Shown here one piece after another: positions 5,010-59,932 of a stretch of 64,000 bases of DNA; within the stretch, counting starts at the first letter, position 1; each line of letters starts with the position of its first letter. Below the pieces are notes generated by a model that was given only the letters and a program-made list of their open reading frames with translations, had not been told where the DNA came from and made no database searches. The stretch is from Pseudomonas sp. B6002. Lineage in GTDB: Bacteria; Pseudomonadota; Gammaproteobacteria; Pseudomonadales; Pseudomonadaceae. The stretch is from assembly GCF_013385985.1 (NCBI RefSeq), contig NZ_JACAOY010000004.1, forward strand, positions 461,129 through 525,128. The letters run 5' to 3'. The translations under genes were made by a program, and so were the position numbers.

Positions 5010-5029
5010 CTTTGTTTGTGGAGCCTGTT

Positions 5030-5878: not shown

Positions 5879-5886
5879 AGCACTGC

Positions 5887-5964: not shown

Positions 5965-5973
5965 ACGGGGTAA

Positions 5974-6502: not shown

Positions 6503-6541
6503 GGTGGGCTAAAGCTAGCACCGCATCGGGCGTCCGGCAAC

Positions 6542-7951
6542 TTACTGGCCAGGGAGTGCGATCACACCCTGGGCCCAGAAGCGTGGCTGCAGGTGATCAT
6601 GACCGGCGCGCAGGTAGTCCGCCTGGTCTTGCACGGTATGAGGCAGGTCGCGTGCAGCGATAAATAACATCAGACCAACGGCCATCACACCGGCTATTTG
6701 CCACGCTGCGCCCGCCCACTTCAGCCCGCTGTCCAAGGGAGTTCGCCCTACGTGCAACGCCATCAACCAACCTACCACCAGCGCCAGCCATACCTGTGAG
6801 TTGGGCATCACGATGACACCGTCGACCATCGACTGCACCAACGTACCCACCAACGCCGCAAACAGGCACAGCCGCAGCAGGTCTTCACCGGCCTCAGACA
6901 ATGCTCGTGCGCGCACTATCCTGCACGTCGCCCAGCCAGCCCGCCACGCCAGGACGGCCACACATAGGGCTGACGGCACGCCCCACTCACTGGCCCACTG
7001 CAGAACCGCCTGGTGCGGGTGGGCCGCTATTTCATTGGCGATATCGGCAAAATGCATGGGACCGAAGCCTAGCCAGGGGCGCTCTTCAATCATGTGCCAA
7101 GCTTGTAACCAGATCGGACCGCGCCCCGACAGCGAGGTGGTCAGGCGATCGCCTGCGCCACTGCCAACTTCAATCCCCAGATAGCCCGCCAACCCCACGA
7201 ACAACAGCCAATACAACACCAGGCCGCCACATAGCGCCGCCAGTTGCCAGGCAACCCAACGCCGCCCCCAAGGCCCCAGCACCGTCAACACCCCAGCCGC
7301 CACCGCCAGGCCAAGCCACGTACCGCGCGTGCCGCCACTGATGGCGATCAACCACCAGACACACAGCAGCGCAAACACCCCGGCACGCATGGCGCGGGTA
7401 ACATTCGCTAAAAGCAAAGGGAGCGCCAACAGCGCCAAGGTGAAGGTCTGAAACTGGCCATAAAATCGCTTGTTGGAAAACCCCGACAGCAGATGGTCGA
7501 GGTTCAGCACATCGTTACCACTGGTAAAGGCCGATGCTGCGGCCCACAGGTACTGCAAAGACTTGACCAGGCACAGCAGCAAGACAATCAGGATCAGGGC
7601 GCGATCCATCGGCTCACCACCCTGACGTCGAAGCAAGGCGAACGCCACGGCGATCGCGCCACAACCGACAAACAGCGCCACTTCGGTGAGCGCCCACAAC
7701 GGCTGATGAGCCAGTACGGAAGAGATCACGCCCAGCCCGATGATCGCCATCAGCCCATAGGTGCTGGGCCGGTCCAACAACCGCTCGCCTGAACCGGCCG
7801 ACAGCCCATACAGCACCGCGCCCAGGCTCATGACAATCTGTGTGGAACGTTGCAGATCATGCCCACTGAACGGCAAGCAGATGCCCACCGCCAACAGGCA
7901 TGCAGCCACTACCAGAAACACATTGCCTCGCTGTTGCAGGGACAACGACAT
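6542..7951 (-). CDS. O-antigen ligase-family membrane protein, probable pilin O-oligosaccharyltransferase (TfpO/PilO-like)
   Basis: 469 residues with about 11-12 hydrophobic segments. A Wzy_C-type region (about 195-345) contains SGGTRGTWLGL, the loop LSGRGPIWLQAW and the HPHQAVLQWASEWG motif (residues 311-324), placed as in O-antigen ligases and PglL/TfpO enzymes. It lies 36 bp after pilA on the same strand. In P. aeruginosa group I strains, tfpO follows pilA beside the same tRNA-Thr and glycosylates the pilin C-terminal Ser. I infer the same role, but this pilin ends in Gly-Ala, so the acceptor must differ or the substrate is another protein. Confidence 0.75.
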   Translation of the reverse strand: MSLSLQQRGNVFLVVAACLLAVGICLPFSGHDLQRSTQIVMSLGAVLYGLSAGSGERLLDRPSTYGLMAIIGLGVISSVLAHQPLWALTEVALFVGCGAIAVAFALLRRQGGEPMDRALILIVLLLCLVKSLQYLWAAASAFTSGNDVLNLDHLLSGFSNKRFYGQFQTFTLALLALPLLLANVTRAMRAGVFALLCVWWLIAISGGTRGTWLGLAVAAGVLTVLGPWGRRWVAWQLAALCGGLVLYWLLFVGLAGYLGIEVGSGAGDRLTTSLSGRGPIWLQAWHMIEERPWLGFGPMHFADIANEIAAHPHQAVLQWASEWGVPSALCVAVLAWRAGWATCRIVRARALSEAGEDLLRLCLFAALVGTLVQSMVDGVIVMPNSQVWLALVVGWLMALHVGRTPLDSGLKWAGAAWQIAGVMAVGLMLFIAARDLPHTVQDQADYLRAGHDHLQPRFWAQGVIALPGQ

Positions 7952-7987
7952 GGGCCACCCTTACTTCCGTGTTGTGAGGTCAGGCAA

Positions 7988-8401
7988 TCAGGCGCCGCAA
8001 CCTTTGGTGACGTACTGCGCATCCGCCGTGGTTGCGCACTTCCAACCCGTGGTTGCACTACGCGTCAACGTGATGGTCTTGCCCAGCACAGGCGCCGGGG
8101 CGTCAAGGATTTCGCAACTGATGGACCCTGCCCCCGTGGCCACGTCCCCAACTACGTCGATCTTGCAATTGGCGGTAGGGCTGGTGCCGCCGATCAAGGC
8201 CAGGGTCGGTACAGTGCCTTGATTGAGGGTGTCTTCATAGCCGGCCTTCAATGCGGAGATTTCCGCCAACCCCGCCGTGAACTTGGCCTTGGCCTGGTGC
8301 TTGGTGTACATGGGCAAGCCGATGGTGGCCAAAATGCCGATGATTGCCACGACGATCAATAACTCGATCAAGGTAAAGCCTTTCTGACGCATCACATTCA
8401 C
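7988..8401 (-). CDS. pilA: Type IV major pilin PilA
   Basis: 137 residues with a class III signal: short leader MNVMRQKG, cleavage before Phe, and the FTLIELLIVVAIIGILATIGLP helix start with Glu5. Two C-terminal cysteines (WKC and KGC) give the usual disulfide loop. It would be processed and methylated by PilD (9800) and assembled through PilC (8595). The first ATG has GGAGA six bases upstream; the second ATG (MRQKG) is also possible. I see no -24/-12 sigma-54 promoter, and neither pilB nor pilSR lies near. It is divergent from pilC. Confidence 0.92.
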   Translation of the reverse strand: MNVMRQKGFTLIELLIVVAIIGILATIGLPMYTKHQAKAKFTAGLAEISALKAGYEDTLNQGTVPTLALIGGTSPTANCKIDVVGDVATGAGSISCEILDAPAPVLGKTITLTRSATTGWKCATTADAQYVTKGCGA

Positions 8402-8594
8402 TCTCCAGGATAGAACTCATGACAAGGCGCGTCCTGCGCCTCGTGGTTTATTGCCGCGCCAGTGTACTCACCCAAATGGGGTCAATCGCGCTCAAGACGC
8501 ACATTCTGACATTTTATCGTGCAACACCGGCCGGCCCGAATCCGTCATCTGACTAAGCTATAAATCTTCCACTCCCTCAGTGCGCAAACGAGAC

Positions 8595-9803
8595 ATGAAC
8601 GACACTTCGACGATCTACGCCTGGGAAGGCATCAACCGCAAGGGGCGCAAGGTGTCCGGGCAAACCGTTGGCCACGATGTGGCACTGATCAAGGCACACT
8701 TGCGCCAGCAGGGCATCTGCCCCGAACGCGTGCGCAGGAAACCTGCCGGCATGCCCCGCCTGGCCGCAACGATCAAGCCTGCGGACATTGCCCTGTTCAC
8801 CCGGCAGTTGGCGACGCTGCTGAAGGCCGGCATTCCCCTGTTGCAGGCCTTCGACATCATCAGCGAAGGCTTCGAGAACCGGCAGGTGCGCGAACTGGTA
8901 AAAGGGCTCAAGCACGCGATAGCAACCGGCAACAGCCTGGCGACGGCACTGCGCAAGCACCCGCGCTACTTCGATGAGCTGTATTGCAACCTGGTTGCCG
9001 CAGGGGAATTGGCCGGTGCTTTGGAAACTCTTCTGGAACGCGTCGCCATCCACCTGGAGAAAAGCGAACAGCTCAAGGCCCGCATCAAGAAAGCCATGAC
9101 CTACCCCATCGCGGTACTGCTGGTCGCCAGCGTGGTCAGCACGGTGTTGCTGATCCATGTCGTGCCGCAATTCCAAAGCCTGTTCGCCGGGGTCGACAGC
9201 CAGTTGCCCGGGTTCACCCGACAGGTCATCGCCCTGTCGGAGTTTCTGCAGCGCGCCTGGTGGGGTGTTGCACTGGGGCTGGGTACCGCCATGATCGCAG
9301 TACGCCAAGCCTATCGGGGGTCCCGTAGTTTTCGATACAAAATAGATACGGGTTTGTTGAGGGTTCCACTAGCAGGCACACTGCTGAAAAAATCCGCCGT
9401 CGCTCGTTACGCCCGCACGCTTTCCACCACCTTTGCAGCAGGCGTGCCCCTGGTACAAGCGCTGGGCTCCGTGGCAGGCACCGTGGGCAATGGGCCCTTT
9501 AAACAGGCAATCGAACACATGCGTCACGACGTCTCAACCGGCATGCCGCTGAACCAATCCATGGCCGCCAGCAACCTGTTCCCGGGCATGGCAATCCAGA
9601 TGACTGCGATTGGCGAAGAATCAGGCACCCTGGACCACATGCTGGAAAAGGTCGCCAACCACTATGAGGCCGATGTGGAACACCTGGTCGATAACCTCAC
9701 CAGCCTGATGGAGCCGTTGATCATGGTGGTGCTGGGCGGCATTGTCGGTGCGCTGGTGATTGCCATGTATCTGCCTGTCTTCCAATTGGGTTCGGCATTT
9801 TGA
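8595..9803 (+). CDS. pilC: Type IV pilus inner-membrane platform protein PilC
   Basis: 402 residues, normal PilC/GspF length. Two T2SF domains (about 65-190 and 265-390) each carry the family pattern (TRQLATLLKAGIPLLQAF; ARTLSTTFAAGVPLVQAL), and three membrane segments are evident, the last near the C-terminus. It forms the inner-membrane platform that couples the ATPases to pilin assembly. I chose the ATG at 8595 (MNDTSTIYAWEG); a GTG at 8580 is possible. In PAO1 pilB stands between pilA and pilC; here only about 190 bp of non-coding DNA lies there. The stop overlaps pilD. Confidence 0.93.
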   Translation: MNDTSTIYAWEGINRKGRKVSGQTVGHDVALIKAHLRQQGICPERVRRKPAGMPRLAATIKPADIALFTRQLATLLKAGIPLLQAFDIISEGFENRQVRELVKGLKHAIATGNSLATALRKHPRYFDELYCNLVAAGELAGALETLLERVAIHLEKSEQLKARIKKAMTYPIAVLLVASVVSTVLLIHVVPQFQSLFAGVDSQLPGFTRQVIALSEFLQRAWWGVALGLGTAMIAVRQAYRGSRSFRYKIDTGLLRVPLAGTLLKKSAVARYARTLSTTFAAGVPLVQALGSVAGTVGNGPFKQAIEHMRHDVSTGMPLNQSMAASNLFPGMAIQMTAIGEESGTLDHMLEKVANHYEADVEHLVDNLTSLMEPLIMVVLGGIVGALVIAMYLPVFQLGSAF

Positions 9804-10666
9804 GCCTGCTGTTGAGTGAGCACCCGTGGGCGTTTACCGCGATGGCGCTGGTGCTGGGCCTGATTGTCGGCAGCTTCCTCAATGTGGTGGTGTGGCGCCT
9901 GCCGAAAATGCTCGAACGGGACTGGCGTATCCAGGCCCAGGAAGTGCTTGGGTTGCCTGTTGACCCTCCCGGTCCCACCTACAATCTGATGCGCCCCAAT
10001 TCTTGCTGCCCGCATTGCAACCAACCGATTCGCCCCTGGGAAAACATCCCGCTGCTCAGTTACCTGATGCTCAAGGGGCGTTGCGCCCGTTGCCACGCGC
10101 CCATCAGCACCCGCTACCCCTTCACCGAGCTGGTCTGCGGGCTGCTCTCGGCCGTGGTTGCCTGGCATTTCGGCTTTGGCGGGCAAGCCTTTGTGGTGCT
10201 GGTATTGAGTTGGGGCCTGCTGGCAATGAGCCTGATCGACGCCGACCACCAACTGTTGCCGGACGTGCTGGTGCTGCCCCTGTTATGGCTGGGACTGATC
10301 GTCAACTACTTCGAACTGCTGGTGCCACTGCCCGATGCCTTGTGGGGCGCAGTGATCGGCTACATGAGCCTGTGGTCGGTGTTCTGGTTGTTCAAACTGG
10401 TCACCGGCAAGGACGGCATGGGTCATGGTGATTTCAAGTTGCTGGCGTTGCTCGGCGCCTGGGGTGGCTGGCAAGTGCTGCCCATGACCCTACTGATGTC
10501 CTCGCTGGTCGGGGTGTTTGTCGGGCTGCTGTTACTGCGCCTGCGCAAGGCCCAGGCGTCGACCCCGATGCCGTTTGGTCCGTATCTGGCCATTGCCGGC
10601 TGGATTGCATTGCTCTGGGGTGGTCAAATAACCGACTTCTATTTGCAGTCTGTCGGTTTCAGATGA
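9800..10666 (+). CDS. pilD: Prepilin peptidase / N-methyltransferase PilD
   Basis: 288 residues, inner-membrane aspartic protease that cleaves and N-methylates type IV prepilins and type II pseudopilins. The N-terminal zinc-binding domain shows two CxxC pairs (CPHC and CARC with a preceding SCC). The catalytic aspartates are in [12 protein letters not shown] and in GHGDFKL. About eight hydrophobic segments. The start is TTG at 9800, overlapping the pilC stop. The stop overlaps coaE as ATGA, so pilC-pilD-coaE-yacG is one translationally coupled operon. Confidence 0.95.
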
Positions 10667-11286
10667 CCACTCCTGTTGTAACACCCTGGATTCTTGGCCT
10701 CACGGGCGGCATCGGCAGCGGTAAAAGCGCCGCCGCCCAGCACTTTATTGACCTTGGCATTGACCTGGTCGACGCAGACCATGCTGCCCGGTGGGTCGTG
10801 GAACCTGGCCGGCCGGCGTTGGCTAGCATCGCCGAACACTTTGGTGCAGGCGTGCTGCAACCTGACGGCCAATTGGACCGCGCTGCGTTGCGCAAACTGA
10901 TCTTCGAAGTGCCCGAAGAGCGGCGCTGGCTCGAAGCCCTGCTGCACCCGCTGATTGGCGAGGAAATTCGCAGCCACCTGGCGCGTGCTCAATCGCCCTA
11001 CGCGATCCTGGTGTCGCCGCTGCTGATCGAATCGGGCCAGTACAGCATGACCCAGCGCATCCTGGTGATCGACGTGCCGCAATCATTGCAGATTCAGCGT
11101 ACCCTGCAGCGCGACGGCATCAGCGAGCAACAGGTGCAGGCGATTCTCAAGGCCCAGTCCAGCCGTGAAGACCGCCTGAAACATGCCGACGATGTACTGG
11201 TCAATGACAAGGACCTCGCGTGGTTGCACAGCGAGGTCGAGCGACTGCACCACTTTTACCTTACTTTGCGTGGAGGCCGATCATGA
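10663..11286 (+). CDS. coaE: Dephospho-CoA kinase
   Basis: 207 residues, standard length. It phosphorylates the 3'-OH of dephospho-CoA in the last step of CoA synthesis. The P-loop [17 protein letters not shown] is near residue 8, the [13 protein letters not shown] segment near 32 and the lid region near 140-150. The ATG overlaps the pilD stop by 4 bases and the stop overlaps the yacG start, the same order as in PAO1 (PA4528-4530). Confidence 0.96.
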
Positions 11287-11483
11287 GCCAACCCCTGACT
11301 GTCGACTGCCCAACCTGCGGCGCCCCCGTGGAATGGAAAGCGACCAACCTCAACCGCCCGTTCTGCTCGGACCGTTGCAAACTCATCGACCTGGGCGCCT
11401 GGGCAGCTGAAGAACACAAGATTCCCGTAGCACCGGACGCCGAAGACGAGCTGTTTTCAGAAGACCTGCCGCCACGCCACTAA
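11283..11483 (+). CDS. yacG: DNA gyrase inhibitor YacG (zinc-binding)
   Basis: 66 residues. A zinc site is formed by CPTCG (near residue 9) and the [15 protein letters not shown] motif (near residue 30), diagnostic of YacG, which binds GyrB and inhibits gyrase. The C-terminus is acidic. The ATG overlaps the coaE stop. Its stop overlaps by 4 bases the stop of the opposite-strand gene 11480-11695. Confidence 0.95.
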
Positions 11484-11695
11484 GGGCGCATAAAGGCGTA
11501 CTCCTGCTGGTCGTCGAGGTTCTCTGCAAGGTATTGCAGCTCGTCGGCCAGGTCTTCGAAACTGCGCACGCCTTTGCTCTGCTGCACCACCGCACTGAGC
11601 ATGGCGCGCAGCGTCAGGCCCGGGTCAAAGCCGATTTCTTGCGCGGCATCCTGGCTTCTACGCAGCTCTTGCCGTGCCCATTCGTACACACTCAT
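11480..11695 (-). CDS. Small conserved hypothetical protein
   Basis: 71 residues starting [15 protein letters not shown], helical, with no signal or membrane segment. It is conserved in position in pseudomonads next to yacG (to my recollection), but I know no function. The ATG at 11695 has GGGAG 6 nt upstream; a longer frame to 11791 would lack such a site. An ANR/FNR-like site at 11762-11775 lies where a class II site would be if transcription began near 11728, so low-oxygen control is possible. Confidence 0.75.
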
Positions 11696-11761
11696 GATTC
11701 GTGCTCCCACCTTTGCCCAGGAAAATTTCGCAGAGCATGGGCTTGCTCGGCTGTGCGGGAT

Positions 11762-48717: not shown

Positions 48718-49617
48718 CTAGAGGCGGCTGGACAAGTCTTCCAGGGCCGCGTGCAACTCTGTGAACTGAAAAGTGAAACCGGCCGCCAGCAAGCGTTCGG
48801 GCACCGCTTTCTGGCCGCCCAACAGCAACCCGGACAACTCGCCCAGCCCAACCTTCAACGCAAACGCCGGCATCGGCATGTACGCAGGGCGGTGCAGCAC
48901 CTGGCCCAGGGTCTTGGCAAACTCGCGGTTGCGCACTGGGTGCGGCGCGCACGCATTATAAGGACCGCTGGCGTCGTTCTTGTGCAGAAGAAAATCAATC
49001 AGGGCGATTTGATCCTTGATATGCACCCACGGCATCCACTGCCGACCATCGCCGATCGGCCCGCCCAGCGCCAGCTTGAATGGCAGCAGCAACCGCGACA
49101 AAAAGCCGCCCTGCGCCGCCAGCACCAGGCCGGTGCGCACCAGCACTACGCGCACGCCCAAGGCTTCGGCGCGCAAAGCGGTTTCTTCCCAGGCAATACA
49201 GAGCTGGCTGGGGAAGTCATCCTGCACCGGGCCGCTTGCCTCGGTCAGTTCGCGCTCGCCGCCGTCGCCATACCAGCCCACCGCAGAGCCGGATATCAGC
49301 ACGGCGGGTTTGCGCTCCAGACTCTCGATCCACGCCAGCAGGGTTTCGGTGAGGCTGATGCGGCTGCTCCACAACAACGCCTTGCGCTTGCGGGTCCAGG
49401 GGCGATCCGCGATCGGCGCACCCGCCAGGTTGATGACCGCATCCACCGGGCCGATCACCTCTTGCAGACGGCCAACGCCCAGCACTTGAGCACCACACCA
49501 TTTGGCGACCGTCTCCGGCTCACGGCTCCACACCGTAAGTTGATGCCCCTGCGCCAGCCAGTGTTGGCACAGTTGGCGGCCGATCAGACCCGTACCGCCG
49601 GTCAGCAAAATATGCAT
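48718..49617 (-). CDS. TIGR01777 family SDR epimerase (YfcH/SulA-like)
   Basis: 299 residues, extended SDR. NAD(P) motif [19 protein letters not shown] at the N-terminus, [19 protein letters not shown] (about 70) and [13 protein letters not shown] (about 110, with the YG part of the active site), then a DUF1731-type C-terminus. Bacterial homologues are called epimerases or cell-division inhibitors; activity unproven. Co-transcribed with hemH and divergent from the FAD gene at 49828 across a candidate LitR operator. Confidence 0.87.
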
Positions 49618-49753
49618 GGGACGCTCCTGATGTAACGTTCGCCGTCGATCACTGGTCTATTTTATAGGAAGGGATCATTTGTAAACGGGCGTAACGTTGG
49701 CTAAGCCTCAGCTTTAACCATAGGTCACACCGTTAGAACAGGCACGCCAAAAC

Positions 49754-51026
<1,273 letters not shown>

Positions 51027-51040
51027 CACGCCGCAAATAC

Positions 51041-51116
51041 TTGTACAAAATATTTGACTTGTACAGCATCAAATCTATGATGAGATTTAGTTGTACAAGC
51101 TTTTCAGTTTGTATAG
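51041..51116 (+). promoter_or_regulatory. Two tandem LitR/PplR-type operators overlapping the photolyase-operon promoter
   Basis: Pair 1: TGTACA (51042-51047), N12, TGTACA (51060-51065). Pair 2: TGTACA (51092-51097), N12, TGTATA (51110-51115). Both fit the published PplR1 direct repeat T(G/A)TACA, N12, TGTA(C/T)A exactly. A sigma-70 promoter, -35 TTGACT (51054-51059) and -10 TATGAT (51076-51081), lies under pair 1; pair 2 covers the start and early leader. Confidence 0.85.
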
Positions 51117-51137
51117 GAATCTCGCAGGGGTTTGGCC

Positions 51138-52097
51138 ATGTCCAGCAGTGCAAAACCAAAGATCGCCATCAGCGCCTGTTTGCTGGGCGAAAACGTGCGT
51201 TTCAACGGTGGCCACAAACAATCCCTGCTGTGCAGCCAAACCCTTTCTGACTATTTCGACTTTGTGCCGCTGTGCCCAGAAGTCGCCATCGGCCTGGGTA
51301 TCCCCCGCGAACCGATCCGTTTGGTCGGCGACCCCGCCCACCCGCAAGCCGTTGGCACCGTGCACCGAGAACTCAACGTCACCCAGCCGCTGGACGCATA
51401 CGGCGAGCAGATGGCGGCGGAACACACTGACCTGTGCGGCTACATCTTCATGCAGAAGTCGCCGTCCTGTGGCCTGGAGCGGGTCAAGGTCTATCGCGAC
51501 AACGGCACCCCGGTAGACGGCGGCGGGCGCGGCATCTATGCCCAGGCTTTTTGCGCCCGCCACCCCAACCTGCCCGTGGAAGAAGACGGCCGCCTGAATG
51601 ACCCGGTGCTGCGTGAAAACTTCCTGACCCGCGTCTTCGTGTACGCCAGCTGGCACCAATTGCGTGCCGACGGCCTGACCCGCCACAGCCTGCTGGCCTT
51701 CCATTCTCGCTACAAATATTTGCTGATGGCCCACAGCCCGGCGCACTACAAAAGCCTCGGCCACCTGCTCGGCAGCATGAGCAAGCACACCCATCTCGAA
51801 GAATTGGCCGACTGCTACTTCAGCGACCTGATGACCGGCCTGAAAAAATGCGCCACCCGTGGCACCCACACCAACGTGCTGCAACACATCAGCGGCTACC
51901 TCAAGCAGGCCATCAGCGCCGACGACAAGCAGGAAATGCAAACCGTCATCGGCCAGTACCGCCATGGCATCGTGCCGCTGGTGGTGCCGCTGACCCTGCT
52001 CAAGCACCACTTTCGCCAACACCCGGACCGCTACATCGCGCAGCAGGCTTACCTGCAGCCGCACCCGGAAAATCTCAGCCTGCGAAACGCGATCTAA
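51138..52097 (+). CDS. DUF523/DUF1722 (YbgA-type) fusion protein
   Basis: 319 residues. N-terminal DUF523 (about 5-150) with conserved cysteines (ISACLLGENVRFNGG, LCPEVAIGLG, MQKSPSCGLERVKVY) and C-terminal DUF1722/YbgA domain (about 185-305; HSRYKYLLMAHSPAHYKSLGHLLG, HFRQHPDRYIAQQAYLQPHPENL). Found next to photolyase in E. coli (ybgA-phr) and in pseudomonads. It may bind a metal or Fe-S cluster through the cysteines. First gene under the LitR operators and 2 bp from the regulator gene. The ATG at 51138 was preferred to TTG at 51132. Function unknown. Confidence 0.9.
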   Translation: MSSSAKPKIAISACLLGENVRFNGGHKQSLLCSQTLSDYFDFVPLCPEVAIGLGIPREPIRLVGDPAHPQAVGTVHRELNVTQPLDAYGEQMAAEHTDLCGYIFMQKSPSCGLERVKVYRDNGTPVDGGGRGIYAQAFCARHPNLPVEEDGRLNDPVLRENFLTRVFVYASWHQLRADGLTRHSLLAFHSRYKYLLMAHSPAHYKSLGHLLGSMSKHTHLEELADCYFSDLMTGLKKCATRGTHTNVLQHISGYLKQAISADDKQEMQTVIGQYRHGIVPLVVPLTLLKHHFRQHPDRYIAQQAYLQPHPENLSLRNAI

Positions 52098-52099
52098 CT

Positions 52100-53029
52100 A
52101 TGAAACCTGCCCTGCAAGACGAACCCGGCGAAGACATTGCCAAAGCGCTCGAAGACGGCTGGTTGCCGATTCGCGAAGTGGCGCGCCAGACCGGCGTCAA
52201 CGCCGTGACCCTGCGCGCCTGGGAACGCCGCTATGGCCTGATCGTGCCCCAGCGCACGCCCAAGGGCCATCGGCTGTTCAGCGCCGAGCATGTTCAACGT
52301 ATCCACGCCATTCTGACGTGGCTCAATCGCGGCGTGCCGGTCAGCCAGGTGAAAGGCCTGATCGACTCCGCCCAAGCCAACCCCGACGCCGTCGAAAACG
52401 AATGGCACACCCTGCGCCAGAACCTGGTAACCGCCATCAGCGAACTGGCCGAGCGCCGGGTCGACGACGCTTTCAACCAGGCCATGGCGCTGTACCCGCC
52501 GCGCACCTTGTGCGAGCAATTGATGCTGCCGCTGCTCCAGGAACTGGAGCAACGCTGGCAAGGCCAGTTCGGCGCCCAGATGGAACGGGTGTTTTTCCTG
52601 TCCTGGCTGCGCAGCAAGTTCGGCGCACGCATCTACCACAACAACCGCCAGCTTCAAGGCGCGCCGCTGTTGCTGATCAATCATTCGGACCTGCCCCTGG
52701 AGCCCCACCTGTGGCTCAGCGCCTGGCTGGCGAGCAGCGCCGACTGCCCGGTGGAAGTCTTCGATTGGCCATTACCGGTGGGCGAGTTGGCCCTGGCGGT
52801 GGAGCACCTGCAACCCCGCGCAGTGTTGTTGTACTCAAGCAAGGCCCTCCACCTGTCGGCACTGGCCAAACTGTTCGGCGGCGTGAGTTGCCCAAAACTG
52901 ATAACCGGACCAACGGTATGCATCCACAAGGCCGAGCTGGCCGTATTAACCCGTGACATCCCCGAATTGTTCGTGGCCGAAGACCCGTTGTCGGCTCATC
53001 AGTTACTGATCCAGCGTGGAATCGTTTAA
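52100..53029 (+). CDS. MerR-family light-responsive regulator, LitR/CarH class II (PplR-like)
   Basis: 309 residues. N-terminal MerR HTH (about 20-90) with WLPIREVARQTGVNAVTLRA, WERRYGL and GHRLFSAEHVQRI, then a CarH-type helical domain (about 100-180) and a C-terminal cobalamin-domain-like fold (about 185-305). The B12-binding D-x-H-x-x-G motif is missing, which marks class II LitR proteins. In P. putida such proteins act with LOV-domain partners and repress light genes through a TGTACA direct repeat. The same repeat lies 1 kb upstream, implying autoregulation. No LOV gene is in the window. TAA is followed directly by the phrB ATG. Confidence 0.9.
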   Translation: MKPALQDEPGEDIAKALEDGWLPIREVARQTGVNAVTLRAWERRYGLIVPQRTPKGHRLFSAEHVQRIHAILTWLNRGVPVSQVKGLIDSAQANPDAVENEWHTLRQNLVTAISELAERRVDDAFNQAMALYPPRTLCEQLMLPLLQELEQRWQGQFGAQMERVFFLSWLRSKFGARIYHNNRQLQGAPLLLINHSDLPLEPHLWLSAWLASSADCPVEVFDWPLPVGELALAVEHLQPRAVLLYSSKALHLSALAKLFGGVSCPKLITGPTVCIHKAELAVLTRDIPELFVAEDPLSAHQLLIQRGIV

Positions 53030-54475
53030 ATGCATTTGATCTGGCTGCGCACCGACCTGCGCCTACACGACAACACCGCCCTGGCCGCCGCGAGCCAGCG
53101 GGGCCCGATCGCGGCCGTGTACCTGATCACGCCCGAACAATGGCTGGCCCACGATGATGCCCCGTGCAAAGTCGACTTCTGGCTGCGCAACCTGGCGCAC
53201 TTGAGCCAAGCGCTCGGTGCACTGAATATTCCGTTGCTGATCCGTACCTGCGCCACCTGGGACCAGGCGCCCGGCCTGCTGAGCACACTGTGCCGCGAGT
53301 TGTCGGTGGAGTCGGTCCATGTCAACGAGGAATACGGCATTCACGAGAGTCGCCGTGATGCCGCCGTGGCCAAGGCGCTGGAAGCCGACGGTGTGACGTT
53401 CCACAGCTACCTGGACCAACTGTTTTTCCAACCCGGCAGCGTGTTGACCAAAACAGGCACCTATTTCCAGGTGTTCAGCCAGTTCCGAAAAGTCTGCTAC
53501 ACCCGCTTGCACAGCGCCTTGCCACGCTTGGTGGCCACGCCAAAGGCCCAGGCAAAAACCGCCATGCACAGCGACCCGGTGCCTGAAACCGTCGACGGCT
53601 TCGAACCGCCCAGCGACACCTTGCGCGCCCTCTGGCCGGCCGGTGAAGACGAAGCCCGTCGCCGTCTCGACGCCTTCGCCGACCAGCAGATCAGCTACTA
53701 CAAGGACGAACGCGACTTCCCGGCCAAGCCCGGCACCAGCCAGCTCTCGGCCTACCTGGCTGCCGGCGTGGTGTCGCCACGCCAATGCCTGCACGCTGCA
53801 TTGCAGACCAATCAGGGTGAATTCGAAAGCGGCGACATGGGCGCCATCACCTGGATCAACGAACTGCTGTGGCGCGAGTTCTACAAACATATCCTCGTGG
53901 GCTACCCACGGGTATCGCGCCACCGTGCGTTCCGCCCCGAGACCGAAGCCGTGGCCTGGCGCAATGCACCCAAAGACCTCGCCGCCTGGCAGGAGGCGCG
54001 CACCGGCTTGCCGATCATCGACGCCGCCATGCGCCAGTTGCTCGAAACCGGCTGGATGCATAACCGCCTGCGCATGGTGGTGGCGATGTTCCTGACCAAG
54101 AACCTGCTGATCGACTGGCGCGAAGGTGAACGGTTCTTCATGCGCCATTTGATCGACGGCGACCTCGCGGCGAACAACGGCGGCTGGCAATGGAGCTCGT
54201 CCACCGGCACTGACTCGGCGCCTTACTTCCGCATCTTCAGCCCACTGAGCCAGTCGGAGAAATTCGACGGCGAAGGCGTGTTCATCAAGCGCTGGCTGCC
54301 GGAACTGGCCGCGCTGAATAAAAAGGAAGTGCACAACCCTGAGGCGGTCGGCGGCCTGTTCGGCGTGGCGGACTACCCGCGTGCGATCGTCGACCTGAAG
54401 AAATCCCGGGAGCGGGCATTGGCGGCCTTCCGCAGCCTGCCTTCACGTGAAGCGGTCGGAGGTGCACATGAGTGA
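53030..54475 (+). CDS. phrB: Deoxyribodipyrimidine photolyase
   Basis: 481 residues. N-terminal alpha/beta antenna domain (MHLIWLRTDLRLHDNTAL; VHVNEEYGIHESRRD) and C-terminal FAD domain with TSQLSAYLAAGVVSPRQCLHA, LLWREFYKHIL, TGWMHNRLRMVVAMFLTKNLLIDWREGE-like helices and NNGGWQWSSSTGTDSAPYFRIF, the class I CPD photolyase signature. Repairs cyclobutane dimers using blue light. It starts directly after the LitR gene stop and its end overlaps the NTF2-like gene by 8 bases. Confidence 0.96.
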   Translation: MHLIWLRTDLRLHDNTALAAASQRGPIAAVYLITPEQWLAHDDAPCKVDFWLRNLAHLSQALGALNIPLLIRTCATWDQAPGLLSTLCRELSVESVHVNEEYGIHESRRDAAVAKALEADGVTFHSYLDQLFFQPGSVLTKTGTYFQVFSQFRKVCYTRLHSALPRLVATPKAQAKTAMHSDPVPETVDGFEPPSDTLRALWPAGEDEARRRLDAFADQQISYYKDERDFPAKPGTSQLSAYLAAGVVSPRQCLHAALQTNQGEFESGDMGAITWINELLWREFYKHILVGYPRVSRHRAFRPETEAVAWRNAPKDLAAWQEARTGLPIIDAAMRQLLETGWMHNRLRMVVAMFLTKNLLIDWREGERFFMRHLIDGDLAANNGGWQWSSSTGTDSAPYFRIFSPLSQSEKFDGEGVFIKRWLPELAALNKKEVHNPEAVGGLFGVADYPRAIVDLKKSRERALAAFRSLPSREAVGGAHE

Positions 54476-54890
54476 CTTCCTGCGCCGGTTCGCCCAGGCG
54501 TTTGCCACGCTGGACAAGTACAACCTGCACCTGCTCGACAGCCTGTACAGCAAGGACATCGCCTTCGCCGACCCGCTGCATGAAGTGCACGGCCTGCCCG
54601 CGATGCATCGCTATTTTGCTGACCTGTACAGCAACGTCAGCCAGTTGCGCTTCGACTTCCACGGCTTCGACCAGGTGGCGGAAGGCGAAGGCTACCTGCG
54701 CTGGAAAATGAGTTTTTGTCACCCGCGCCTGGCCAATGGCAAGGTGATCCGGGTGGAAGGTTGTTCGCACCTGATGTGGCGCGACAAGGTGTACCGCCAT
54801 CGCGATTATTTCGATGCCGGCGCGATGCTCTACGAACACTTGCCCGTGCTGGGCAGTGTGGTCAGCTGGCTGAAAAGGAGAATGGGATGA
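54468..54890 (+). CDS. NTF2-like (SnoaL-type) protein
   Basis: 140 residues: one NTF2-like domain (FATLDKYNLHLLDSLYSKDIAFADPLHEVHGLPAMHRYF; YLRWKMSFCHPRLANGKVIRVEGCSHLMW; RDYFDAGAMLYEHLP). Such folds serve as isomerases or carrier/binding proteins; here substrate unknown. The ATG at 54468 overlaps phrB by 8 bases and the stop overlaps the SDR gene. It probably assists the lipid-modifying steps of the operon. Confidence 0.85.
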   Translation: MSDFLRRFAQAFATLDKYNLHLLDSLYSKDIAFADPLHEVHGLPAMHRYFADLYSNVSQLRFDFHGFDQVAEGEGYLRWKMSFCHPRLANGKVIRVEGCSHLMWRDKVYRHRDYFDAGAMLYEHLPVLGSVVSWLKRRMG

Positions 54891-55669
54891 GCCTTACACC
54901 GCCCCGTCGTTATTGGCTGACCGGCGCCAGCAGTGGCATCGGTGCCGCGCTGGCCGTGGAACTGCTCAACAGCGGCGCCCACGTGGCGCTCAGCTCGCGC
55001 ACCAAAGGCCCGCTGGAAGCCCTCGCCCAACGCTACCCGGGGCAGGTGCTGGTGGTGGCCGGCGACCTGACAAACAGCCAGACCGTGCGCGAAATCGGCG
55101 AGCGCATCGGCGCGGCCTGGGGCTCGCTCGACACCGTGATCCTCAACGCCGGCACCTGTGAATACGTGGACGCCCGGCAGTTCGACTCATCGATCATCGA
55201 ACACGTGGTGCGCACCAACTTGCTGGCCAGCAGTTACTGCATCGAAGCCGCGCTGCCGCTGTTGCGCGCCGGGCAAACGCCGCATTTGGTAGGCGTTGCC
55301 AGTGCCGTGACCTACCTGCCGATGCCGCGCGCCGAAGCCTATGGCGCGTCCAAGGCGGGGCTGCGTTACCTGTTTGAATCGCTGCGCATCAGCCTGTCGC
55401 CGGAAAATATCGACGTCACGGTGATCAGCCCAGGCTTCGTCGACACACCACTGACCGAGCGCAACGACTTCCCCATGCCCCTGAGCTGGCCCGCCGGCAA
55501 GGCCGCCAGGCACATCTTTGCCAAGTTGGAAAAACGTCCGCTGGAAATCGCCTTCCCGGCCCTTTTCATCGCCACGCTGTGGCCGCTGTCGAAATTGCCC
55601 AACCGCGCACAATTGATCATCGGCAAACGCATGCTGCGCAGCCCGCCGCCGCAGAAGGACGACCTGTGA
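54887..55669 (+). CDS. Short-chain dehydrogenase/reductase
   Basis: 260 residues, classical SDR. Cofactor motif YWLTGASSGIGAALAVELL (about 10-28), LNAGTCEYVDA (about 88), catalytic Ser in VGVASAVTYLPMPRAEAYGASKAGL with Tyr-x-x-x-Lys (YGASK). Start ATG overlaps the upstream stop (4 bases). In photolyase-linked lipid operons of Proteobacteria a similar SDR precedes the FAD gene. Substrate unknown. Confidence 0.9.
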   Translation: MSLTPPRRYWLTGASSGIGAALAVELLNSGAHVALSSRTKGPLEALAQRYPGQVLVVAGDLTNSQTVREIGERIGAAWGSLDTVILNAGTCEYVDARQFDSSIIEHVVRTNLLASSYCIEAALPLLRAGQTPHLVGVASAVTYLPMPRAEAYGASKAGLRYLFESLRISLSPENIDVTVISPGFVDTPLTERNDFPMPLSWPAGKAARHIFAKLEKRPLEIAFPALFIATLWPLSKLPNRAQLIIGKRMLRSPPPQKDDL

Positions 55670-56913
55670 AGATCGCGATTGTTGGCAGCGGGATTGCCGG
55701 GTTGACCAGTGCTTACCTGCTCAGCCGTAACCACGACATCACGCTGTTCGAAGCGGGCGAGCGCATCGGCGGGCATACCCACACGGTCAACGTGACCGTG
55801 GAGGATAAAAGCTACGCAGTGGACACCGGCTTTATCGTGTTCAACGACTGGACCTATCCCAACTTCATTCGCCTGTTGGGGCAGATCGGCGTGAAATTCA
55901 AACCCACCGAAATGAGCTTTTCGGTGAGTGATCAGGGTGAAGGCTTCGAGTACAACGGCAACAACCTCAACAGCCTGTTCGCCCAGCGCAGCAATATTTT
56001 GTCTCCGGGGTTCTGGGGCATGTTGCGCGACATCCTGCGCTTCAATCGCCAGGCGCCACTGGACCTGCAAGAGCAACGCATCAGTGCCGAGATGACCCTG
56101 GGCGATTACCTCCAGGCCGGGGGCTACGGCCCGCGGTTCATCCGGCATTACATCGTGCCGATGGGCGCGGCGATCTGGTCGATGTCCCTGGCCGACATGC
56201 TGGGGTTTCCCTTGCAGTTCTTCGTGCGTTTCTTCAAGAACCACGGCTTGCTCTCGGTGAACAACCGGCCGCAGTGGTGCGTGATCGACGGCGGCTCCAG
56301 CAGCTACATCGAACCGCTCACCCGCAGCTTTCGTGAACATGTTCGGCTCAATTGCCCTGTGCATAACGTGGAGCGCACAGAGGATGGCGTGGTTATCCAC
56401 AGCCCGGCCGGCCGGGAGACCTTTGATCGGGTGGTGTTTGCCTGCCACAGCGACCAGGCCCTGGCGTTGCTCGCCGACCCAAGCCAGGCCGAACAGGAAA
56501 TCCTGGGCGCCCTGCCCTACGCCGACAATGACGTGGTGCTGCACACCGACACCCGCCTACTGCCGGACCGCAAACTGGCCTGGGCCAGCTGGAACTACCG
56601 GCTGACCGGCAGCGAGCAGACCCAGGCGGCCGTGACCTACGACATGAACATCCTGCAAGGCATCGACAGCGCCACCACCTTTTGCGTCAGCCTCAACCAG
56701 ACGCCAATGATCAACCCGCTGAAGATCCTTGCCCGCTACACCTACGCACACCCGCAATACAGCCTGGCGGCCGTGGCTGCCCAAGCGCGCTGGCAAGAGT
56801 TGCACGGCACGCGCAATACCTTTTATTGCGGTGCCTACTGGGCCAACGGTTTCCACGAAGACGGCGTGACCAGCGCCTTGCGTGTGGCCGAAGCCTTTGG
56901 AGAGCGCCTGTGA
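55666..56913 (+). CDS. FAD-dependent amine-oxidase-like protein (NAD(P)/FAD oxidoreductase)
   Basis: 415 residues from GTG at 55666 (overlapping the SDR stop as GTGA). FAD motif IAIVGSGIAGLTSAYLLSRNHDITLFEAGERIGGHTHTV, then VDTGFIVFNDWTYPNFIRLLGQIGV and a C-terminal FYCGAYWANGFHEDGVTSALRVAEAFG. This is the family encoded beside Cfa-like methyltransferases and DUF1365 proteins; in Rhodobacter-type clusters such flavoproteins take part in furan-fatty-acid synthesis (from memory). Substrate inferred: phospholipid acyl chains. Confidence 0.87.
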   Translation: MKIAIVGSGIAGLTSAYLLSRNHDITLFEAGERIGGHTHTVNVTVEDKSYAVDTGFIVFNDWTYPNFIRLLGQIGVKFKPTEMSFSVSDQGEGFEYNGNNLNSLFAQRSNILSPGFWGMLRDILRFNRQAPLDLQEQRISAEMTLGDYLQAGGYGPRFIRHYIVPMGAAIWSMSLADMLGFPLQFFVRFFKNHGLLSVNNRPQWCVIDGGSSSYIEPLTRSFREHVRLNCPVHNVERTEDGVVIHSPAGRETFDRVVFACHSDQALALLADPSQAEQEILGALPYADNDVVLHTDTRLLPDRKLAWASWNYRLTGSEQTQAAVTYDMNILQGIDSATTFCVSLNQTPMINPLKILARYTYAHPQYSLAAVAAQARWQELHGTRNTFYCGAYWANGFHEDGVTSALRVAEAFGERL

Positions 56914-57719
56914 ACAGCGCCCTGTACAGCGGCTGGATCGCCCATCGGCGGTTCGCGCCCAAGGCCCATGCGTTTCGTTACCGCATCGGCCTGCTGTACC
57001 TGGATTTGAGCGAACAAGACGAAGTGCTCGGGCTCTCGCCCCTGGCCGGCGCGAGTCGCCTTGCGCCCTTCGGCTTTCGCCAGCAGGACTACCTGCGTGA
57101 ATTGACGCGCCACGGCATGAGCTTGACCGATGCCGTGCGCCACGAAGTCGGCAAGGCACTGGGGCGTACACCCCAGGGCGTAATCTGCCTACTGACCCAG
57201 GCCCGCAGTTGGGGCCTGGCTTTTAACCCTGTGAGTTTCTTCTACTGTTTCGAGGCCGACGGACAACTGGCCGCGATCCTGTGTGAAGTGACCAACACCC
57301 CCTGGCGCGAGCGCTATCACTACGTGCTGCCCGCCCAGGCGCTGGGTGCCGATGAGCACCAGCATTTTGCCGTGGCCAAGGCCTTTCATGTGTCACCGTT
57401 TTTGCCGCGCGAGCTGGAATACCGCATGAGCTTCAGCCCGCCCGCCGCCAGGCTCGGCGTGCACATGGCCGACTGGCAAGGCGACTTTAAAGTCTTCGAC
57501 GCCACCCTGAACCTGCAAAAAGAAGCCCTGAGCCGCGCCAGCCTGCACCGCTACCTGTGGCGCTTTCCGTGGATGACCGCCAAGACGTGCCTGGCGATTT
57601 ACTGGCAGGCCCTGCGCCTGTTGCTCAAACGCACACCGATTTTTTCCCACCGGGCCGCCGATGGCGCCTCTCGCACCGCAGTCGGGTATACCAAGGATCG
57701 CCGCCATGAAAACCCCTAG
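56910..57719 (+). CDS. DUF1365 family protein
   Basis: 269 residues from GTG at 56910 (overlapping the upstream stop). Characteristic segments: SALYSGWIAHRRFAPKAHAFRYRIGLLYLDL, FNPVSFFYCFEADGQLAAILCEVTNTPWRERYHY and FHVSPFLPRELEYRMSFSPP. Biochemical role unknown, but the family nearly always sits between an FAD oxidoreductase and a Cfa-like methyltransferase, suggesting a partner in acyl modification. Overlaps the methyltransferase gene by 14 bases. Confidence 0.9.
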   Translation: MNSALYSGWIAHRRFAPKAHAFRYRIGLLYLDLSEQDEVLGLSPLAGASRLAPFGFRQQDYLRELTRHGMSLTDAVRHEVGKALGRTPQGVICLLTQARSWGLAFNPVSFFYCFEADGQLAAILCEVTNTPWRERYHYVLPAQALGADEHQHFAVAKAFHVSPFLPRELEYRMSFSPPAARLGVHMADWQGDFKVFDATLNLQKEALSRASLHRYLWRFPWMTAKTCLAIYWQALRLLLKRTPIFSHRAADGASRTAVGYTKDRRHENP

Positions 57720-58977
57720 CTTATCGGTCAAGGCCAACCGCCTGAACGTCAACGGCATGACCACCGCGCTGCTGCGCAAGGCGGTACTGCGCCAACTCAG
57801 CCAGTTGCGCCATGGCCAGTTGGTGGTGATCGAGGACGGCGAACGCCAAGTGTTCGGTGCCCGGGAAGCGCACCTGTTGGGGGAAATCCAGATCCTCGAT
57901 TCGGCCGTGTGGGGCCTGGTGGCGGCCAACGGTTCCATCGGTGCGGGCGAGGCGTTTATCCACGGTTATTGGAGCAGCCCGGACCTCACCGCCGTGGTGC
58001 GGGTGATGGTCAGCAACCTGGATGTTCTGGATGCGATGGAAGGCGGCCTGGCACGGCTGGCTCGCCCGTTCACCCAAGGCCTGCACTGGCTCAACCGCAA
58101 CACGCGCAAGGGCTCACAGAAAAACATCGCCGCTCACTACGACCTGGGCAATGACCTGTTCGAAGAATTCCTCGACCCGACGATGATGTATTCGGCGGCG
58201 CAATTCCTGACCCCCGACGACACGTTGGAACAGGCGCAGTTGAACAAACTGGAACGCATCTGCCAGAAGCTCGCGCTCAAGCCGACTGACCACTTGCTGG
58301 AAATCGGCACCGGCTGGGGCAGCATGGCGCTGTATGCGGCCCAGCACTATGGCTGCAAGGTCACCACCACGACCTTGTCCAAGGAGCAGTTTGCCTACAC
58401 CGAAAAACGCATCGACGCCCTGGGCCTGAACGACCAGGTGACCCTGTTGCTGCAAGACTATCGCGACCTCACCGGCCAATACGACAAGTTGGTTTCGATC
58501 GAGATGATCGAGGCCGTGGGCCACCGGTTTCTGCCGACCTACTTCAAGCAATGCGCGCACTTGCTCAAGGCCGACGGCCTGATGTTGCTGCAAGCCATCA
58601 CCATTCGGGAACAGCGCTTCGAGCAGGCCAAGAACAGTGTCGACTTCATTCAGCGCTATATCTTCCCCGGTGGCGCCCTGCCGTGCGTGCAAAACATGCT
58701 GCACATCGTCAGTCGCGACACCGACATGAACCTGCTGCACATGGAGGATTTCGGCCTGCACTACGCGCGAACCCTGCGCCTGTGGCATGAGAACTTTCGC
58801 CGCGCCCACGGCCGCCTCGCCGAGTTGGGCTACGATGAGTACTTCCTGCGCTTGTGGGAGTTCTACTTGTGCTACTGCGAAGGGGGGTTCATGGAACGAA
58901 CGATTGGTACCGCGCAGTTGCTGCTGGCCAAGCCTGCGGCGATCAACCCGCCGCTGCTCGGGCGCTTCAGTGCTTAA
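57706..58977 (+). CDS. Cyclopropane-fatty-acyl-phospholipid synthase family methyltransferase (UfaM-like)
   Basis: 423 residues. N-terminal lipid-binding region (about 25-110, GAREAHLLGEIQILDSAVWGLVAANGSIGAGEAFI), SAM-binding domain with LLEIGTGWGSMALYAAQHYGCKVTTTTLSKEQFAY (about 200-235), and the C-terminal EDFGLHYARTLRLWHENFRR and LWEFYLCYCEGGFMERTIG, typical of the Cfa family. It transfers a methyl or methylene from SAM to acyl double bonds. Context (photolyase, FAD, DUF1365, LitR) points to the UfaM branch, light-induced in P. putida, rather than the growth-phase Cfa. The next gene starts 8 bases inside. Confidence 0.9.
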   Translation: MKTPSLSVKANRLNVNGMTTALLRKAVLRQLSQLRHGQLVVIEDGERQVFGAREAHLLGEIQILDSAVWGLVAANGSIGAGEAFIHGYWSSPDLTAVVRVMVSNLDVLDAMEGGLARLARPFTQGLHWLNRNTRKGSQKNIAAHYDLGNDLFEEFLDPTMMYSAAQFLTPDDTLEQAQLNKLERICQKLALKPTDHLLEIGTGWGSMALYAAQHYGCKVTTTTLSKEQFAYTEKRIDALGLNDQVTLLLQDYRDLTGQYDKLVSIEMIEAVGHRFLPTYFKQCAHLLKADGLMLLQAITIREQRFEQAKNSVDFIQRYIFPGGALPCVQNMLHIVSRDTDMNLLHMEDFGLHYARTLRLWHENFRRAHGRLAELGYDEYFLRLWEFYLCYCEGGFMERTIGTAQLLLAKPAAINPPLLGRFSA

Positions 58978-59461
58978 ACCGCTGGTCAATGCCGCGCTGT
59001 TCCAGTGCGGCTGGTTTGCCTGCGTACTCGGTGGCGACAGCCGCTGGCTGCTGGTGGGGTTCGCCGCGCTGGCCCTTCATTTGCTGTGGACAAGTTCCTG
59101 GGCCGAGGAAGGCCAAGTGATCCTCGCGGTGACCTTGCTCGGCACGGTGATCGACACCTCGTTGCGCACCTTTGGTGTGTTTCATTTCAGCCTGCCCGGG
59201 CCGCTGATTCCGTTCTGGCTGGTGCTGCTGTGGGCATTGCTCGCGACCACGTTGCGCCATTGCCTGGCGTGGACCGCACGCCCCTGGTGGCGTGCCAGCG
59301 TGTTGGGCGCAGCGGCCGGGCCCTTGTCCTATTACGCAGGTAGCCAATTGGCCGGCGTGAGTTTCGGCTACGCCACGGCGCCTACGCTGATCGGCCTCGC
59401 GCTGCTGTGGGCCGTGGCGTTCCCGGTGCTGCATTGGGTTGCGCGGCAGCTGGGGCACTGA
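58970..59461 (+). CDS. DUF2878 membrane protein
   Basis: 163 residues from GTG at 58970, overlapping the methyltransferase stop by 8 bases. Five or so hydrophobic segments; motifs VNAALFQCGWFACVLGG, VLLGT-like AVTLLGTVIDTS and PFWLVLLWALLATTL fit DUF2878. Inner-membrane protein, unknown function; probably last gene of the light operon, possibly presenting or sensing modified lipids (inference). The DUF3833 gene that I recall in related clusters is not present. Confidence 0.82.
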   Translation: MLKPLVNAALFQCGWFACVLGGDSRWLLVGFAALALHLLWTSSWAEEGQVILAVTLLGTVIDTSLRTFGVFHFSLPGPLIPFWLVLLWALLATTLRHCLAWTARPWWRASVLGAAAGPLSYYAGSQLAGVSFGYATAPTLIGLALLWAVAFPVLHWVARQLGH

Positions 59462-59515
59462 CGTCTGTCAGAGCAATCACACGCGCCTGACGCGCTTGCC
59501 TTACACTGCGCGCCT

Positions 59516-59821
59516 ATGACAGACATCCCCCACGTTCAGATCCCCGAACCCGCCGTCACCTGCTCGACGTGCGCGGCCTGCTGCTGCCAGCTGGAAGTGA
59601 TGCTGATCACCGACACCGGCGTGCCGGAGCGCTATATCGATACGGACGATTGGGGCGGCGAGGTCATGCTGCGCCTAGACGATGGCTGGTGCGCGGCGCT
59701 GGATCGGGACACGATGATGTGCACGATCTATGAGCGACGGCCGCTGATTTGCAGGGAGTTCGAAATGGGGGCACCGGAGTGCCTGGAGGAACGGCAGGGG
59801 ATTGCCACCGCTTACCGCTGA
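59516..59821 (+). CDS. YkgJ family cysteine-cluster protein
   Basis: 101 residues with a cysteine-rich site: VTCSTCAACCCQLEVML (near 15-31), WCAALDRDTMMCTIYERRPLICREFEMG (near 58-85). Matches YkgJ-type putative zinc- or iron-chelating proteins. It stands 54 bp after the light operon on the same strand, with no evident own promoter, so it may be read from it. Function unknown. Confidence 0.88.
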   Translation: MTDIPHVQIPEPAVTCSTCAACCCQLEVMLITDTGVPERYIDTDDWGGEVMLRLDDGWCAALDRDTMMCTIYERRPLICREFEMGAPECLEERQGIATAYR

Positions 59822-59843
59822 TCGCGAATATGGCGATATTCAA

Positions 59844-59932
59844 ATGTGGGAGCTGGCTTGCCTGCGATGGCGTCACCTCGGTATGACTGATACACCGAGG
59901 TGCCTGCATCGCCGGCAAGCCAGCTCCCACAT
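59844..59932. repeat. REP doublet (REPIN) 7
   Basis: Arms ATGTGGGAGCTGGCTTGCCT and the reverse type ending GGCAAGCCAGCTCCCACAT, with inner CACCTCGGT/ACCGAGGTG complementarity. Between the convergent YkgJ-type gene and pagL. Confidence 0.92.

Follow-up and report, generated by a model that had tools for sequence, protein, structure and literature searches.

Nine genes on the forward strand of a 64,000-nucleotide stretch of Pseudomonas sp. B6002 (assembly GCF_013385985.1; positions 461,129 to 525,128 of contig NZ_JACAOY010000004.1, here C34, in a genome of 6.68 Mb; hereafter the window, whose positions are used throughout) were identified as this strain's copy of the light-inducible pmlR1/pplR1 operon of Pseudomonas, and since that operon is already in print (PMC9758184), the operon as such is not new. 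Considering gene content, promoter layout and the regulators encoded elsewhere in the genome, it is rather likely that the operon is a light-response unit of the pmlR1/pplR1 type, which is switched by LitR and LOV proteins and which combines DNA repair, transfer RNA (tRNA) adjustment and the synthesis of furan fatty acids. The operon spans 51138-59461 with one promoter ahead of it, and it starts with a gene for RudS, i.e., a 2-thiouracil desulfurase (DUF523/TudS) fused to DUF1722 (51138-52097; PF04463, PF08349), which is followed by genes for a class II LitR-type repressor resembling PmlR1 and PplR1 with a MerR head and a B12-binding_2 match (52100-53029; PF13411, PF00376, PF02607), the deoxyribodipyrimidine photolyase PhrB (phrB, 53030-54475; NF007955, 542 bits at a cut-off of 506), an NTF2/SnoaL-like protein (54468-54890; PF12680) and a short-chain dehydrogenase/reductase (SDR; 54887-55669; PF00106, with S139, Y152 and K156 invariant). 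The remaining four genes encode a flavin adenine dinucleotide (FAD) oxidoreductase of the UfaD family (55666-56913; flavin-containing amine oxidoreductase, PF01593; function according to PMC7380195), a DUF1365 protein of the UfaO family (56910-57719; PF07103, 252.6 bits), a putatively UfaM-type S-adenosylmethionine (SAM)-dependent acyl methyltransferase of the Cfa family (57706-58977; PF02353, mycolic acid cyclopropane synthetase) and a hydrophobic-looking DUF2878 protein (58970-59461; PF11086). All junctions lie between +2 and -14 bp (in gene order +2, 0, -8, -4, -4, -4, -14 and -8 bp), and each of the nine genes has at least one Pfam match over the curated cut-off. A search for terminator-like sites in 49600-59900 returned nine against a shuffle mean of 9.4, which corresponds to chance; the three on the forward strand are all intragenic and none locates to a junction. 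The nine coupled genes that the original prediction had described hold in coordinates, families and junctions; the nine-gene operon and its light induction had been published before (PMC9758184).

The promoter region carries the light-control part of this assignment. A TTGACT-N16-TATGAT promoter (51054-51081, forward strand) is identical in hexamers and spacing to the mapped P6650 promoter of P. mendocina, and it is accompanied by two operator-like dyads of the same strand, both of which match the consensus T(G/A)TACA-N12-TGTA(C/T)A exactly: site 1 (TGTACA-N12-TGTACA, 51042-51065) lies over the -35 hexamer, and site 2 (TGTACA-N12-TGTATA, 51092-51115) lies between the expected start of transcription, which by analogy would be at about 51090, and the first ATG. 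P6650 itself was reported to consist of TTGACT-N16-TATGAT and a pair of TGTACA-N12-TGTACA sites, the first of which covers the -35 hexamer while the second follows the start site and precedes the ATG; both fall within the DNase I footprint of PmlR2 (PMC9758184), and the two dyads of the window are positioned as these sites 1 and 2. A consensus scan of 49600-59900 for sigma-70-like promoters gave one match against a shuffle mean of 1.9 and proves nothing by itself. The exact operator dyad was found at four places in the 6.68 Mb genome with none in the control, and when one mismatch was allowed, 21 places were found as compared to nine in a reversed control. A large LitR regulon defined by the exact operator was considered and rejected, as the two exact places outside of the operon sit inside called open reading frames. 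A LitR study of P. putida from 2020 reportedly identified 19 light-inducible genes. As relatives of the operon, the 80 best DUF1365 loci were kept out of 178 obtained from named genomes; all 80 are from Pseudomonas and some of them end at contig edges (e.g., L181 and L183); the closest of these is 99% identical, the source genome's own records possibly being excluded. Among the 79 related loci with a RudS match, 70 possess two exact dyads and the hexamers, five possess one dyad and the hexamers, three have two dyads without the hexamers and one has a single dyad only. Single-sequence searches (expectation value, E, 1e-20) recovered the nine genes in strict order from 57 of the 80 relatives, and with profiles (E 1e-6) RudS, LitR and PhrB were detected in 79 each, the SDR in 80, the NTF2-like protein in 66, UfaM in 79 and DUF2878 in 72.

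No Pfam match to a cobalamin-binding domain was obtained for the LitR protein of the operon, and light sensing that depends on adenosylcobalamin, as by class I LitR/CarH, was rejected for it on this ground. The literature is in conflict here, as class II LitR was described as adenosyl-B12-dependent in one report (PMC11417400) while another stated that B12 is not required by the P. putida homologues and doubted its binding to PmlR2 (PMC9758184). A second LitR-like gene was identified on contig C3, the product of which shares 38% identity with the operon's LitR over residues 21-281 and of which only the MerR head reached a Pfam E of 0.001. One gene away from it, a short LOV-type protein of 155 amino acids is encoded. 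The LOV motif is NCRFLQ, and a search with this pattern gave nothing; the absence of a LOV sensor was nevertheless rejected, as the negative resulted from the pattern: the short LOV-type protein has DCRFLQ instead. Among solved structures, the protein is closest to 7yx0 (E 6e-83), named a "putative regulatory protein", and to a number of "sensory box" proteins including 3sw1; these are short LOV proteins of Pseudomonas. The other neighbours of the second LitR gene are a FolM-looking SDR (short-chain dehydrogenase by Pfam) and two genes whose products have no Pfam match, and the neighbourhood of LitR and LOV genes resembles the pmlR2-PME15565-pmSB-LOV arrangement of P. mendocina. There, the illuminated LOV protein was reported to bind PmlR2 and to inhibit its DNA binding, and light was reported to induce phrB 27-33 fold and ufaM 25-33 fold (PMC9758184). 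By analogy, the same LitR/LOV switch would operate in this strain, and the light control suggested by the original prediction is thus supported both by the promoter and operator layout of the P. mendocina type and by the presence of a second LitR and a short LOV protein in the genome. The suggested course of events assumes that in the dark the class II LitR proteins, that of the operon and the second one, would block the sigma-70 promoter by occupying both TGTACA dyads, and that in blue light the short LOV protein would turn into its adduct form, bind the second LitR and thereby free the promoter, so that the nine genes would be co-expressed. Then PhrB would repair pyrimidine dimers and RudS would remove the near-UV-sensitive 4-thiouridine from tRNA, while UfaM would methylate a monounsaturated phospholipid acyl chain, UfaD would desaturate it and UfaO would use O2 to form a methyl-furan, which is thought to be a membrane antioxidant. 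We infer that the light induction, the repression and anti-repression, the RudS activity and the furan pathway known from relatives hold in this strain, with a furan as the product.

A different mode of control was described for P. syringae, and it would imply that the part from phrB to DUF2878 answers singlet oxygen via an RpoE/ChrR-type sigma factor acting on a promoter inside litR. This is regarded as very improbable for the window. In its favour, PSPTO_1043 of P. syringae was reported to bind upstream of phrB within PSPTO_1122, the promoter being induced by singlet oxygen and tert-butyl hydroperoxide, the genes concerned are part of the predicted core RpoE/ChrR regulon, and several P. fluorescens strains were stated to possess a putative site ahead of phrB, yet without the sigma factor (PMC5507510). 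However, at the matching place inside litR of the window (52922-52945) the TGATCC-N16-CGTA motif is reduced to ATCC-N16-CGTA, and a scan for GATC-N17-CGTA in a fixed stretch around litR matched in three of the 80 relatives. Moreover, the ChrR-type domain Cupin_7 gave two matches in the genome of about 31 bits at a family cut-off of 27, and within the pseudomonads the sigma/anti-sigma pair was reported to be confined to the P. syringae group (PMC5507510). With its site degraded, RpoE/ChrR control was rejected.

As to the lipid genes, work with Rhodobacter revealed that UfaM methylates cis-vaccenate and UfaD desaturates the methylated product, and that UfaO, a DUF1365 protein, is required for the furan, the oxygen of which derives from O2 (PMC7380195). 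The corresponding genes of the window, the assignment of which is based on Pfam family and gene linkage, probably build furan-containing membrane fatty acids. Their membership in the families of UfaM, UfaD and UfaO supports the original prediction, according to which phospholipid acyl chains are changed; this prediction had, in addition, taken the role of the DUF1365 protein as undescribed, a claim which is out of date because UfaO carries DUF1365 and is needed for the furan oxygen, while for the NTF2-like protein, the SDR and DUF2878 it stood, as no biochemical role was found for them. Alternatively, the lipid genes might yield cyclopropane fatty acids or a methyl-branched unsaturated chain as the end product, with the UfaD and UfaO homologues using other substrates, and this is possible, if on the doubtful side, given that the methyltransferase belongs to the CMAS family. 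The comparison of two kinds of Cfa protein bears on it. The bicarbonate-site residues of E. coli Cfa are C139, E239, H266, I268 and Y317 (PMC3132707), and when aligned with the E. coli structure (6bqc), the methyltransferase of the operon shows A, E, Q, I and Y at these positions, so that two of the five (C139 to A and H266 to Q) are not kept; in its own numbering, A164, E269, A270, Q296 and Y353 correspond to C139, E239, the next residue, H266 and Y317. In contrast, the sole other Cfa homologue found in the genome reads C-E-H-H-Y at the five positions C139, E239, next, H266 and Y317. Among 105 Cfa sequences with at least 200 aligned residues, those encoded beside UfaO (n = 69) have E-A-Q at E239, the next residue and H266 in 65 cases, E-S-Q in two, E-A-H in one and a gap in one; those beside DUF2878 without UfaO (n = 20) have E-H-H in 16 and E-A-Q in four; and of those beside neither (n = 16), 15 have E-H-H and one has E-A-Q, the latter (L064) being located 313 nt from UfaO. 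At C139, variation occurs in each of the two groups, and this position does not discriminate by itself. A tree was calculated for 104 sequences with a length of 300 amino acids or more, from an alignment not comprising Rhodobacter UfaM; when it is split at the clade which best separates Q from H, all 72 Q-bearing sequences and a single H-bearing one form one clade with a support of 0.98. The methyltransferase of an unannotated Ensifer region, found in a search of plasmids for UfaO relatives, is also of the E-A-Q kind. The nearly constant linkage of UfaO to UfaD and a Q-type gene, together with the exchanges at C139 and H266, argues against the cyclopropane alternative.

The E-A-Q signature was nevertheless dropped as a proof of furan synthesis and does not settle the product, because the cotton enzymes GhCPS1 and GhCPS2, in which C139 (to S) and H266 are changed, make cyclopropane, the plant enzymes with a changed H266 additionally carrying an N-terminal oxidase domain. 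Next to the cotton enzymes, several further points weigh against furan synthesis and against the identity with the known operon: the P. syringae orthologues were reported to be 35-39% identical to the Rhodobacter enzymes (PMC5507510), a limited literature search gave no publication on furan fatty acids in Pseudomonas, and four hypothetical genes of the pmlR1 operon are matched by position and not by sequence. Two observations concern the same protein families. In nine UfaO loci (L041, L042, L045, L048, L050, L052, L055, L059 and L063) a second Cfa gene of the E-H-H kind lies not far from DUF2878, and it may add a distinct step of the cyclopropane type alongside the furan genes. In an alignment of 71 UfaO sequences, which omits L042, L057, L083, L099, L100, L109 and L115 of the 78 loci considered below (some being near-duplicates, broken or short), H12, R14, P107, Y138 and S162 are invariant and H160 is present in 64 of 71, making these residues candidates for a cofactor site or the active site of the UfaO family; a search for relatives of UfaO with solved structure returned none that was convincing (best E 0.5).

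Gene neighbourhoods separate the parts of the operon from each other. DUF1365 was found in 78 and DUF2878 in 46 (45 over the cut-off) of the 274 genomes of the window's class, and both occur together in 34 genomes as compared to about 13 expected from the two counts, kinship being uncorrected. The 78 UfaO loci, i.e., 77 that were fetched and the window (matches at E 1e-6, some loci ending at contig edges), contain UfaD in 76 and UfaM in 75 cases, two of the latter being matches of about 30 bits only, an SDR in 41 (generic SDRs included, with 38 genes exceeding 230 bits), DUF2878 in 28 and NTF2 in 27, while PhrB was found in 20, LitR in 19 and RudS in eight. The NTF2 gene adjoins a same-strand SDR gene in 23 of 27 cases, and in 38 of 44 loci DUF2878 is located at most 300 nt from a same-strand Cfa-type gene. 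Sixteen of the 20 DUF2878 sites that did not coincide with a fetched UfaO gene were retrieved; ten of these 16 loci have such a Cfa neighbour (one a fragment) and six have none. From these counts it follows that UfaD-UfaO-UfaM is the core, that NTF2-SDR is a movable pair and that DUF2878 mostly accompanies Cfa-type methyltransferases rather than the furan genes alone. Further recurrent neighbours of UfaO, named by eye from clusters that may merge unrelated frames, are a chalcone isomerase-like protein (26 loci), a sugar/cation symporter (21) and a fatty acid desaturase (22). On plasmid p1 of Aeromonas sp. BC14 (L218, 98 kb), the annotated nine-gene order is the same (2211-11741) and is followed by genes for TIGR02450, chalcone isomerase-like and DUF3833 proteins, showing that the operon can be plasmid-borne.

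The first gene of the operon does not belong to a lipid set, a point that the original prediction had missed: by its DUF523/DUF1722 architecture, the product is assigned to RudS, a family of tRNA 4-thiouridine erasers. RudS was reported to remove 4-thiouridine from tRNA and, upon overexpression in E. coli, to lessen the growth delay caused by UVA, and its genes were found to often reside within light-responsive operons (PMC11417400). That RudS and PhrB both act on nucleic acids is in line with another explanation, according to which the operon merely gathers unrelated light-stress functions under one switch, with the SDR, the NTF2-like protein and DUF2878 standing outside of lipid chemistry. 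This explanation is considered unlikely. It is favoured by the absence of NTF2 and DUF2878 from some Pseudomonas loci and by the finding that single deletions of RSP1087, RSP1088 and RSP1089 in Rhodobacter had no detectable effect on the fatty acid profile (PMC7380195); RSP1087 is an SDR, RSP1088 a hypothetical protein and RSP1089 a symporter (PMC7074977). Against it, NTF2, SDR and DUF2878 occur with UfaD-UfaO-UfaM outside of Pseudomonas in loci where RudS, LitR and PhrB were not found (L070, L085, L089 and L095).

For a light-response operon that includes furan synthesis, these three proteins are accessory ones, the SDR being present in every Pseudomonas locus tested and the other two being sometimes absent; when traces were sought in seven of the loci without DUF2878 and six of those without NTF2, one locus with traces was found in each set (L169 and L201). 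The serine, tyrosine and lysine of the SDR are kept in 119 of 119 distinct rows of at least 230 bits, and D35, W79, H111, D113 and D116 of the NTF2-like protein in 95 of 95 rows above 100 bits, with many close Pseudomonas relatives among the rows. As these residues are invariant, both proteins are suggested to have real functions. A search for solved-structure relatives gave none for DUF2878 and none that was convincing for the NTF2-like protein (best E 0.12). A phenotype of a Vibrio DUF2878 mutant is published, and in the available part of the same source no biochemistry was found. A complete sacrificial antioxidant cycle might be imagined, in which UfaM, UfaD and UfaO make the furan, the SDR, often together with the NTF2-like protein, then reduces the reactive dicarbonyl that remains once the furan has taken up singlet oxygen, and DUF2878 serves as membrane partner of UfaM- and CFA-type methyltransferases. 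This idea is improbable as a whole, and clearance of furan oxidation products by the SDR is a guess; such a recycling role would account for the retention of the SDR, with an intact S-Y-K set, in all 80 Pseudomonas loci even though RSP1087 is dispensable for synthesis.

Upstream of the operon, a gene pair may constitute a second light-controlled unit. It consists of a gene for an FAD/nicotinamide adenine dinucleotide (NAD)-binding amine-oxidase-like protein (49828-50814; PF01593) and, overlapping it by 4 bp, a gene for a small Trp-rich DUF2389/TIGR02450 protein (50811-51026; TIGR02450, 75.7 bits; PF09493), both on the forward strand, and it is preceded by a third operator-like dyad on the same strand with one mismatch (TATACC-N12-TGTACA, 49755-49778). 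The DUF2389 gene was found in 67 of 79 loci. The one-mismatch dyad lies upstream of the FAD-oxidoreductase gene in 79 of 79 regions, i.e., in the window and in the 78 of the 80 relatives that were testable, as compared to 0.1% of mononucleotide shuffles. When the 77 distinct upstream sequences were aligned, all half-site positions except one (11 of 12) were invariant, the exception being the mismatch, which is C or T; the half-sites had a mean identity to the window of 0.98 and 1.00, as compared to 0.94 in the spacer, 0.69 in the left flank and 0.86 in the right flank up to the gene. This is a good hint that the third dyad is a regulatory site, and it is a hint rather than a proof of LitR binding because the genomes compared are closely related and conservation extends almost undiminished into the spacer. 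The pair is hence predicted to be light-controlled.

Operon, light switch, tRNA enzyme and lipid enzyme families have each been published before, and their occurrence in this strain has little weight as a discovery. However, the Pseudomonas operon offers a tractable system for the chemistry of the furan pathway, for which no chemical check was found in a limited literature search, the three conserved proteins without described biochemical role (SDR, NTF2-like and DUF2878) present themselves as targets, and the operator ahead of the FAD-oxidoreductase/DUF2389 pair predicts a second light-controlled unit.

Compared with known systems, the furan pathway of Rhodobacter sphaeroides and Rhodopseudomonas palustris shares the SAM methyltransferase, the FAD desaturase and the DUF1365 protein with the window, and the SDR RSP1087 is part of the R. 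sphaeroides operon (PMC7380195). That pathway is under RpoE/ChrR control, whereas the operon described here is assigned to LitR and LOV, contains the NTF2-like and DUF2878 genes in addition and unites ufaM with ufaD and ufaO. The P. syringae DC3000 locus PSPTO_1123-1114 likewise holds phrB, SDR, FAD oxidase, the UfaO orthologue PSPTO_1117 and cfa in one place (PMC5507510), yet it is also driven by an RpoE/ChrR-type sigma factor, the motif of which is degraded in the window. In Vibrio cholerae, VC1122 (Cfa) was reported to be raised by blue light and VC1123 (DUF2878) was assigned to the regulon of the MerR-family protein PhrR (PMC5241685, PMC12971978); the comparison covers these two genes, and the Vibrio blue-light response also uses ChrR/SigmaE. 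The same six-gene lipid module as here is found in the NTF2-SDR-FAD-DUF1365-Cfa-DUF2878 cluster of Aeromonas salmonicida (PMC10012899), and the fusion of TudS and DUF1722 within a LitR-PhrB operon is common to the window and the described RudS system, with no difference seen (PMC11417400). The closest counterparts are the pplR1 region of P. putida KT2440 and the pmlR1 operon of P. mendocina NBRC 14162 (PME6650-PME6610), for which transcription of nine genes as one message was described as likely (PMC9758184). They differ from the window in site 2, which ends with TGTATA here instead of TGTACA, an end that the PplR1 consensus permits. The nine genes including pmlR1, phrB, SDR, FAD oxidoreductase and ufaM are shared, as are the hexamers of the promoter with their spacing, the two dyads at the same places, the LitR repressor and a further LitR encoded close to a short LOV protein (PMC9758184).

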